64,000 bases of DNA from Clostridia bacterium (lineage in GTDB: Bacteria; Bacillota; Clostridia; Oscillospirales; CAG-382): the NCBI GenBank assembly GCA_017521025.1, contig JAFXEB010000022.1:1-64000 (forward strand). The letters run 5' to 3'. Position 1 is the first letter of the stretch, and the number at the start of each line of letters is the position of its first letter. The notes below the pieces were generated by a model. The model was not told the origin of the DNA. It saw only the letters and a list, made by a program, of their open reading frames with translations, and made no database searches. Both the position numbers and the translations under genes were made by a program. Shown here piece by piece: positions 1,515 through 41,844 of this stretch.

Positions 1515-2998
1515 CAGCGGTAATTTACGCAAGATATTCCTCGGACAGTCAGCGTGAGGAAAGTATTGACGGTCAGCTCCGTGAGTGTATGGCTTTTGCG
1601 GAAAGACAAGGTATTTCCGTAATTGATACCTACATTGACAGAGCATTGTCTGCGAAAACAGATAATCGACCGCAATTCCAAAAGATGATTAAAGACAGCT
1701 CCAAGAAAAAGTTTGATATAATCATTGTTTGGAAACTTGACCGTTTTGCAAGAAATCGTTATGACTCGGCGCGTTATAAAAATGCGCTCAAAAAGAACGA
1801 TGTCAAAGTAATCTCTGCAACCGAAAATATCTCTGCCGGTTCGGAGGGCATATTACTTGAATCGGTACTGGAAGGTATGGCGGAATACTACTCAGCAGAG
1901 CTTGCCGAAAAGGTTACAAGAGGTCTCACTGAAAATGCCTTGAAATGCAAATTCAATGGCGGTACTGTTCCAGTCGGCTATGTCATTAACAAGGAGCAGA
2001 TGTTTGAGATTGATCCGTTAAAAGCTCCCTGGGTACTTGAAGCGTTTAAGTTATACGACAAAGGCAAGACTATTAAAGAGATCGTAACCTTGTTGAACGC
2101 AAAGGGACTGACTACTTCTCTGGGAACGAAAATATCAATAAACATTGTAACGACTATGCTAAAAAATAGGCGTTACATCGGTGAATATAAGTTTCAAGAG
2201 ATTATTCACGAAAACGGTATTCCACAGATCGTTCCAAAGGATTTGTTCAACAAGGTGCAGGAGCAGTTACAGAAAAATAAAAAAGCCGCCGCAAGGCACA
2301 AGGCCGAGGACGACTATCTGCTGACTACCAAGTTGTTCTGTGGCAAATGCGGTGTCTATATGACCGGAGAAAGCGGTACGGGTAGGAACGGTACAGTACA
2401 CCGCTACTATAAATGCAACAATGCAAAGTACAAGCACGCCTGTGATAAAAAGACTGTTAAGAAGGAATGGATTGAAGATATTGTTGTTCGCTACACCAAG
2501 GAGTTGCTGTTACAGGACGATGTAATCGAAGATATTGCAAACATCGTACTCCGTGTAGCCAGCACCGAAAATACATCTGTAATCCTTCTAAAACAGCAGT
2601 TGAACGAAATCGAAAGAGCAATAGCCAATCTAATGAATGCTATCGAGCAGGGAATCATTACGACTACTACCAAACAGCGTATGATTGAACTTGAGACCAC
2701 CAAAGAAGAATTGGAATTAAAGATTATTAAAGAAGAACTGAAACGCCCTCCTCTTACCAAAGAGGGACTGATTTTCTGGCTGCACAGATTCCGCAGCTTA
2801 GATACAACGAAAAAAGAACACAAGCAGAGACTCATTGACAGCTTCGTAAATGCAGTGTATGTATATGACGATAAGCTGGTTTTGACCTTTAACTACAACG
2901 AAGCAAATACTACCGTTACTCTTGATGATGTAAATGGTTCGATTATAGAATGCTCTGGCGCACCAAATAATAACCGTCATTCTGATACAACGGAATGA
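1511..2998 (+). CDS. Large serine recombinase
   Basis: This 495-residue enzyme belongs to the large serine recombinases that integrate and excise mobile elements through a phosphoserine link. The resolvase/invertase catalytic domain covers about residues 1-145, with nucleophile Ser10 in YARYSS and the downstream arginines of the DRFARN segment. A recombinase domain follows (about 160-260), then a zinc-ribbon domain with C277, C280, C302 and C311, and a C-terminal coiled-coil-like segment (about 345-400). AGGAGG at 1496-1501 sets the ATG at 1511. A hairpin terminator overlaps the stop codon. Its composition is AT-rich like that of the first recombinase. Cargo or excision partners on the far side of the element are outside the window. 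Confidence 0.95.
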   Translation: MTAVIYARYSSDSQREESIDGQLRECMAFAERQGISVIDTYIDRALSAKTDNRPQFQKMIKDSSKKKFDIIIVWKLDRFARNRYDSARYKNALKKNDVKVISATENISAGSEGILLESVLEGMAEYYSAELAEKVTRGLTENALKCKFNGGTVPVGYVINKEQMFEIDPLKAPWVLEAFKLYDKGKTIKEIVTLLNAKGLTTSLGTKISINIVTTMLKNRRYIGEYKFQEIIHENGIPQIVPKDLFNKVQEQLQKNKKAAARHKAEDDYLLTTKLFCGKCGVYMTGESGTGRNGTVHRYYKCNNAKYKHACDKKTVKKEWIEDIVVRYTKELLLQDDVIEDIANIVLRVASTENTSVILLKQQLNEIERAIANLMNAIEQGIITTTTKQRMIELETTKEELELKIIKEELKRPPLTKEGLIFWLHRFRSLDTTKKEHKQRLIDSFVNAVYVYDDKLVLTFNYNEANTTVTLDDVNGSIIECSGAPNNNRHSDTTE

Positions 2999-40729: not shown

Positions 40730-41146
40730 ATGAAAAAGCTTATAGTGATAGACGGTCAGGGCGGAAGGCTCGGAAAACGGATAATAGAGCGTGTGCTTGA
40801 TATACTGCCCGAGGCTGAGATCATCGCAGTAGGTACAAACAGCACTGCCACGGCGGAGATGCTGAAGGGCGGCGCTAAGAAGGGGGCGTCGGGAGAAAAC
40901 GCTATAATCGTTGCCTGCCGAAGCGCAGATATAATTGCAGGCCCCGTAGGCATAATTGCCGCCGATGCCCTGATGGGAGAAATGACACCTGCAGCCGCAG
41001 GCGCCGTGGGTGCCTCTGCCGCCCACAAGGTACTGCTGCCTGTAAGCAAATGCGGGATAACCGTTGCAGGGGTCGGGGAGATGAATTTGTCTGCCCTTAT
41101 AAATGACGCCGCAGATATTATCGCAGGACTTCTCGGTAAGGCGTGA
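40730..41146 (+). CDS. DUF3842 family protein
   Basis: This 138-residue protein begins with a Rossmann-like strand and glycine loop (LIVIDGQGGRLGKRI) and has the repeated Ala/Gly-rich segments typical of DUF3842, a clostridial family of unknown function. NIAGPVGII-like and VGASAAHKVLLPV segments suggest a nucleotide-binding fold. The start at 40730 fits the promoter, although the AGGAAGG site is somewhat far (about 15 bases). It precedes the ECF transporter gene, which has its own promoter. Confidence 0.8.
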   Translation: MKKLIVIDGQGGRLGKRIIERVLDILPEAEIIAVGTNSTATAEMLKGGAKKGASGENAIIVACRSADIIAGPVGIIAADALMGEMTPAAAGAVGASAAHKVLLPVSKCGITVAGVGEMNLSALINDAADIIAGLLGKA

Positions 41147-41154
41147 TTTATAAC

Positions 41155-41183
41155 TTGACAAAAGGTCTGATATATGGTATATT
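41155..41183 (+). promoter_or_regulatory. Promoter of the ECF S-component gene
   Basis: TTGACA (41155-41160) and TATATT (41178-41183) are 17 bases apart, with TGG before the -10. The start would be near 41190, at the first base of the structured leader. Confidence 0.7.
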
Positions 41184-41189
41184 TTTCTG

Positions 41190-41313
41190 GGTGGCATGAA
41201 GCCCCACGGTAAGTCCCGAAGGACGAGATCTTATTTGCTCAACCTGCCGCACCTTCAAGATGCGGTGCTTCTCTGCAGAGAAGCGTAGATTTTGATATTT
41301 TGGGAGATACTGT
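41190..41313 (+). promoter_or_regulatory. Structured leader RNA, candidate riboswitch
   Basis: From the predicted start to the ATG the RNA can form several stems: GTCC-CGAA-GGAC (41213-41224), CCGCA/TGCGG (41247-41265) and GCTTCTC/GAGAAGC (41267-41284). The 5' GGTGGCA (41190-41196) can instead pair with TGC..CACC (41245-41253), which overlaps the second stem, so two exclusive folds are possible. This is the usual design of a metabolite switch, and vitamin ECF transporters are common targets. I do not recognise a known class. There is no strong U-tract, so translational control is likelier. Confidence 0.5.
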
Positions 41314-41844
41314 ATGAACAAGAACCTTAAAAAGCTGACTTATTCCGCCGTACTGCTTGCGTTGGCATTTTTGCTTCCCTTTATTACCGCAAACAATATG
41401 GAGCTTGGCAACGCCTTTTGCCTGATGCACATACCCGTGCTTCTGTGCGGCCTTATTTGCGGCCCCGTATGGGGTACCGCTATGGGTGCGGTTGCACCTC
41501 TTTTGAGGAGTGCCGTAATCGGCGCACCTCCCTTCCCCACCGTTGCTTTACCTATGGCCTTTGAGCTTGGTGCTTATGCCCTTGCGGCAGGTCTTATGTA
41601 TAAGCTATTGCCGAAAAGGATGCCCTACGTTTATCTGAGTCTGTGTGCCGCTATGGTTTTCGGGCGGATAGTGCACGGCACGGTCAAGTTTTTGCTGTAT
41701 GGCTTCAAGGGCGGCTTTTCGGGATACATTACCGGCACGGTGCTTGTTTCGTGGCCGGGCGTGCTGGTACAGCTTTTGCTGATACCGCTGATATTCATTG
41801 CACTTAAACGGGCAAAGCTTTTGCCTGAAAACAATAAAATTTAA
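41314..41844 (+). CDS. ECF transporter S component
   Basis: This 176-residue protein has six membrane segments of the vitamin-uptake S-component type (LALAFLLPFITANN, the GPVWGTAMGAVAPLLRSA segment and PMAFELGAYALAAG). The S component binds the vitamin and joins a shared ATPase/EcfT module encoded elsewhere. The substrate cannot be fixed; pantothenate, folate or a related cofactor are candidates by general likeness. GGGAG precedes the ATG. Control by the leader RNA is probable. Confidence 0.85.
   Translation: MNKNLKKLTYSAVLLALAFLLPFITANNMELGNAFCLMHIPVLLCGLICGPVWGTAMGAVAPLLRSAVIGAPPFPTVALPMAFELGAYALAAGLMYKLLPKRMPYVYLSLCAAMVFGRIVHGTVKFLLYGFKGGFSGYITGTVLVSWPGVLVQLLLIPLIFIALKRAKLLPENNKI

Follow-up and report, generated by a model that had tools for sequence, protein, structure and literature searches.

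A conserved leader RNA of Clostridia as a candidate regulator of nickel-pincer cofactor genes

The 64,000-nucleotide stretch of Clostridia bacterium contig JAFXEB010000022.1 analysed here (the window) carries, between a DUF3842 gene and the gene for an ECF transporter S component (S), a leader that we read, with a probability of roughly 0.6, as the cis-regulatory RNA of a Clostridia regulon for the nickel-pincer nucleotide (NPN), with S as the predicted importer of NPN or the pincer nucleoside. The leader is a candidate regulatory RNA of this cofactor and its salvage rather than a riboswitch of a known vitamin type, and S is probably the cell's route for scavenging the cofactor. The features of the window, and two related fusion genes from other genomes, are as follows.

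40730-41146, + strand: DUF3842 gene, a conserved neighbour of the leader, encoding a small Rossmann-like protein (PF12953, E 6e-47)
41155-41183, + strand: sigma-70-type promoter, TTGACA-17-TATATT, extended -10
41190-41205, + strand: hairpin H1, loop C-AUGAA-G; the helix covaries in 45 relatives
41213-41224, + strand: hairpin H2, GUCC-CGAA-GGAC; the helix covaries in relatives
41247-41265, + strand: hairpin H3 (antiterminator position), CCGCAcC-UUCAA-GaUGCGG
41265-41286, + strand: terminator-like hairpin with an interrupted U-rich tail behind it (41290-41301)
41206-41313, + strand: possible long helix between 41206-41232 and 41286-41313, in which the Shine-Dalgarno GGGAG (41302-41306) would be masked
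41314-41844, + strand: ECF transporter S component, predicted NPN/pincer-nucleoside importer (PF12822)
L185:660-2471 and L186:799-2601, - strand: S-LarA fusion ORFs of 604 and 601 aa

The promoter lies between the two genes and matches the consensus at 11 of 12 positions (TTGACA at 41155-41160, TATATT at 41178-41183, 17 nucleotides apart, with an extended TG), in agreement with an earlier note on this DNA that had the leader starting at a strong promoter. Transcription is predicted to begin at about 41190, with H1 at the 5' end, and the same promoter-to-hairpin distance recurs in leaders of orthologous S genes. The earlier note had proposed two mutually exclusive helices. One, CCGCA (41247-41251) with TGCGG (41261-41265), makes a good hairpin (about -6.4 kcal/mol) and corresponds to the conserved H3, which occupies the position of a GAUAC..GGUGUC hairpin in relatives. 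The complementarity behind the other, GGTGGCA with TGC..CACC, is real but weak and lies outside the conserved structure (-3.4 kcal/mol, versus -6.7 for the local H1 on the same 5' arm); the conserved exclusive pair is instead H3 and the terminator. H1, H2, the terminator-like hairpin and the Shine-Dalgarno-masking helix did not figure in that note. An ATGAAG at 41196 was considered as the start of a leader peptide; the same loop reads CTGAAG, CAGAAG or ACGAAG in relatives, and it is therefore a loop motif and not a start codon.

Folded up to the AUG, the window leader has a minimum free energy of -49 kcal/mol (z -4.2; 0 of 200 shuffles as stable), a value due to the helix that would mask the Shine-Dalgarno sequence and that is mutually exclusive with H2. 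This helix is a single-sequence prediction and is absent from the closest relatives folded, and the decisive evidence for the leader is comparative rather than the folding z. The leaders of orthologous S genes often share this layout, with H1 opening the transcript behind a promoter, H2 next, and H3 and a terminator beyond an AU-rich linker. The hairpins are small and their loops end in GAA or CAA (most often AGAA, CAA, ACAA, UGAA, ACGAA or AUGAA, C-G closed), and the last hairpin competes with an intrinsic terminator; in relatives the 3' arm of H3 is common to the terminator, giving the mutually exclusive structures, one of them a terminator, of an attenuator. In 14 S-gene leaders (alignment A2), RNAalifold recovered the terminator along with H1 and H2, compensatory changes occurring in 16 of the 27 pairs, and the combinations H1+H2+H3 and H1+H2+terminator each beat 500 of 500 shuffles on every measure. 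Covariation in homologous leaders, which the earlier note had named as a check, was also found among 45 leaders of all regulon genes: in an alignment fitted to the model, and hence biased towards the structure, both partners change in 24 of 27 base pairs (0/500 shuffles), and covariation scores 0.70, compared to 0.25 for shuffled alignments and about 0.1 for slid controls.

Covariance model R2, whose training set excludes the window leader, located it in a 20 kb search at 41178-41298 with 27.9 bits (E 5e-4), the next match scoring 11.7, and model R1 gave it 16.4 bits. These scores mark it as a real, if diverged, member of a conserved Clostridia attenuator family. Its divergence and its terminator, which is weaker than those of relatives and shares just one base with H3, count against the main reading. 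The window leader might be a degenerate, non-functional copy, or one that controls translation only, as the interrupted U tract, the lack of real overlap between H3 and the terminator and the strong masking helix would suggest; we regard this as rather unlikely, given that the hairpins, the promoter spacing and the gene order are kept and that R2 recognizes the copy. The weak terminator does make translational control possible, and control of the window copy may act through masking of the Shine-Dalgarno sequence.

R1 matches occur in 48 of 394 genomes of the window's order, the weak ones including plain terminators. Matches of R1 or R2 near E 0.001-0.01 include such terminators (e.g. L162, L165, L168, L169, L174, L176, L213 and L216) and were left out as members. 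A leader-like match of 53 bits at L208 (G459:C12:4471-4598) has no clear gene directly downstream.

The family is absent from Rfam 15: the window gave nothing even at E 10, in line with the earlier note, which had not recognised the leader as TPP, FMN, cobalamin, THF or preQ1, and a scan of 40 relatives' loci returned tRNA, tmRNA and chance matches only. The guanidine-II riboswitch (mini-ykkC) likewise consists of short tandem hairpins with related tetraloops, and a few leader loops read ACGA. The leader differs from it in that most loops are AGAA (the commonest), UGAA, ACAA, CAA or AUGAA, in that the regulon concerns NPN and nickel instead of guanidine, and in the lack of an Rfam match; this class, defined by two ACGR tetraloops, was rejected on the rarity of ACGA.

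The genes behind the leader point to the function of the family. S is the commonest gene behind good leaders, and larE-larB-larC operons share the leader with it. LarB, LarE and LarC build NPN from nicotinic acid adenine dinucleotide (PMC11770544), and operons with LarE, LarB or LarC follow the leader at L143, L144, L145, L151, L153, L159, L160, L163, L166, L167, L171 and L172. In other orders of the class a lar operon again stands behind the leader (L207), and the commonest layout is leader, S and a P-loop kinase similar to uridine kinases (L204-L206, L211, L212, L214, L217-L219), which is a candidate pincer-nucleoside kinase. Such a kinase gene also adjoins S at L149:1629-2684(+) and at L155. 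Lar operons behind the leader begin with genes for two small proteins that are probably located in the membrane (MACF.. and MTLL..; L163:2050-2427(-) and 1736-2050(-), also L143, L145, L151, L172 and L207), for which there was no Pfam or NCBIfam match. A second leader at L036 (5215-5336, +) precedes a gene for a SAM-dependent methyltransferase. One good leader (L150 / L192, 51.8 bits) precedes alaS in genome G218, an outlier in which profile matches to LarA, LarC and DUF3842 are all absent, and this case is evidence against the main reading.

Leaders also stand before CbiM-CbiQ-CbiO (L175), a NikA-like binding protein (L156) and FecCD permeases (L154, L158), and a CsoR-family metal-sensing repressor (PF02583) is encoded within the leader-S-LarC operon at L036:4813-5133(+). 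These loci would suit an RNA that responds to nickel or cobalt ions and not to the pincer cofactor. We consider this improbable, since most leaders precede S, even in genomes without a LarC match, which would have no evident reason to sense free nickel directly, and since the Rfam NiCo family gives no match. The NiCo (czcD) riboswitch is known for efflux genes; a link to nickel or cobalt may be common to both RNAs, whereas the genes here are those of uptake and synthesis. An analogy in gene content is the cobalamin riboswitch, a single RNA set over the synthesis and import of a cofactor as well as metal uptake. The RNA is unrelated and the predicted cofactor here is NPN. An ordinary vitamin, which the earlier note had thought the likely ligand, is disfavoured by a regulon that points to NPN or to nickel/cobalt.

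That the leader precedes an ECF transporter gene, as the earlier note had it, is borne out by the match of S to PF12822 (59.3 bits, cut-off 30.7). The folate-type S component FolT (TIGR04518) belongs to the same PF12822 fold family, but S scores 28.7 bits against it, under the cut-off of 60, and differs in its LarA/LarC context; a PDB sequence search with S gave no relative apart from a weak FolT hint. G305 and G255 each have S and LarA fused in a single ORF (604 and 601 aa, respectively) that carries ECF_trnsprt, Lar_N and LarA_C domains. Scored with the NCBIfam profile of nickel-dependent lactate racemase, the LarA part of the G305 fusion is above the cut-off. S adjoins LarA in G229 and G182, where both LarA proteins pass the same cut-off, and is followed by LarC in G203, G402 and L036.

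The distribution of these genes across genomes (mostly incomplete MAGs) is complementary. Among 81 genomes with a strong LarA, 3 have both LarC and S, 29 LarC only, 38 S only and 11 neither, a near-exclusion of S and LarC with p=8e-10. LarB is missing from 11 of 19 genomes with LarC and S, compared to 2 of 66 with LarC and without S (p=2e-7); both tests ignore relatedness, and the p-values overstate the evidence. None of the LarA-positive, LarC-negative, S-positive genomes tested has LarB above cut-off. The window's own genome (G000, 86% complete) has a LarA of 620 bits (NCBIfam cut-off 460) and gave no LarC or LarB match. Its larA (L184, G000:C20:53000-58500) lies behind malate/lactate-type dehydrogenase and malic enzyme genes, and no leader-like hairpins were seen by eye upstream of it.

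The simplest explanation is that S probably imports the pincer nucleotide or nucleoside. S could instead carry an ordinary vitamin or nucleoside (e.g. a nicotinate compound as precursor of NPN, or a thiamine precursor), the link to Lar proteins being indirect. Weak ThiW and folT-family scores of S, its uridine-kinase-like partner gene and a gene reading like thiD ahead of some distant Lachnospiraceae homologues all fit such a substrate, as do the many genomes that have S but neither LarA nor LarC. The S-LarA fusions and S-LarC operons, the complementarity of S to LarC and LarB, and the occurrence of one leader family before both S and lar operons make it unlikely in our judgement. The roughly 86 S-positive genomes lacking both LarA and LarC nevertheless weigh against import of the pincer compound as the general role of S, and imply that S there either has other substrates or serves an NPN enzyme still to be discovered. 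In about 15% of genomes larBCE occurs without larA, which points to undiscovered NPN proteins (PMC11796402), and S-positive genomes without LarA are therefore no contradiction by themselves.

A conserved neighbour of the leader is DUF3842, present in 27 of 30 R1-positive genomes, in all 5 further genomes with a leader (together 32/35) and in 12 of 49 R1-negative ones, several of which carry diverged leaders. In S, lar and FecCD loci the gene immediately precedes the leader; in other orders it neighbours the S-kinase operon, and in G402 it follows the leader and precedes S and LarC. The hairpin loops of one leader tend to belong to the same class (0.77 vs 0.525 expected from shuffles; 0/5000), and this joint drift suggests a co-evolving partner and suits a protein better than a fixed small ligand. 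DUF3842 may bind the loops as the sensor, or it may be a protein that handles NPN. There is an appreciable chance, if well short of even, that the leader RNA senses nothing and that DUF3842 binds NPN or nickel together with the tandem loops in protein-mediated antitermination, working like the ANTAR regulators yet unrelated to them. Arguing against this are the three leader-positive genomes without a DUF3842 match (G143, G218 and G354), the equally good fit of an NPN-handling enzyme to the same distribution, and the predicted structure (pLDDT 88), for which a fold search gave generic Rossmann-like matches of middling score and no RNA-binding lead. A PDB sequence search found no relative of DUF3842, and a literature search no report on it.

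The ANTAR (EutV/NasR) RNAs offer a precedent for such a protein, with two small tandem hairpins of conserved loop sequence, the last overlapping the 5' arm of the terminator, as in the leader. ANTAR-responsive RNAs are defined by hexanucleotide loops with A1 and G4 (PMC3369931), whereas the leader has up to three hairpins with C-G closed loops of 3-5 nucleotides ending in AA. ANTAR regulation itself was rejected on this loop rule. A search of the window's genome (86% complete) for ANTAR proteins gave no match, and the control genomes were silent too.

In the main reading, the regulon would comprise cofactor synthesis (larE/B/C), metal uptake (CbiMQO, NikA-like, FecCD) and the predicted importer S, often paired with its nucleoside-kinase-like partner. 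RNA polymerase would start at the promoter and the small GAA/CAA-loop hairpins would form at once, the last of them, the antiterminator, competing with the intrinsic terminator. Which of the two forms would depend on how much pincer cofactor or nickel is present, as sensed by the RNA itself or via an RNA-binding protein, for which DUF3842 is the candidate. At low levels H3 would form and the genes be read, and at high levels the terminator would form; the sign of the response may also be the opposite. We propose that, with the cofactor level setting which hairpin forms, a shortage of the cofactor turns on both its synthesis and uptake. The earlier note's term, candidate riboswitch, holds for a conserved, switching cis-regulatory leader, and is less apt in the strict sense of direct sensing by the RNA, in that the sensor may be the DUF3842 protein. 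A more specific proposal, which we hold tentatively and at slightly less than even odds, is that the family represents either a new NPN-sensing riboswitch class or DUF3842-dependent protein-RNA attenuation, combined with NPN salvage in which S imports, the kinase re-phosphorylates and LarC, where present, re-inserts nickel.

A literature search found no earlier report of an NPN transporter or an NPN riboswitch. If the main reading is true, the leader and S would be, respectively, the first RNA regulator connected with the nickel-pincer cofactor and the first candidate NPN importer, as far as the literature searched shows, and DUF3842 and the S-linked kinase become testable unknowns of the NPN field. 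Import by S would also explain the NPN supply of bacteria that have LarA and lack LarB and LarC, and would suggest that NPN is traded between bacteria in gut communities.
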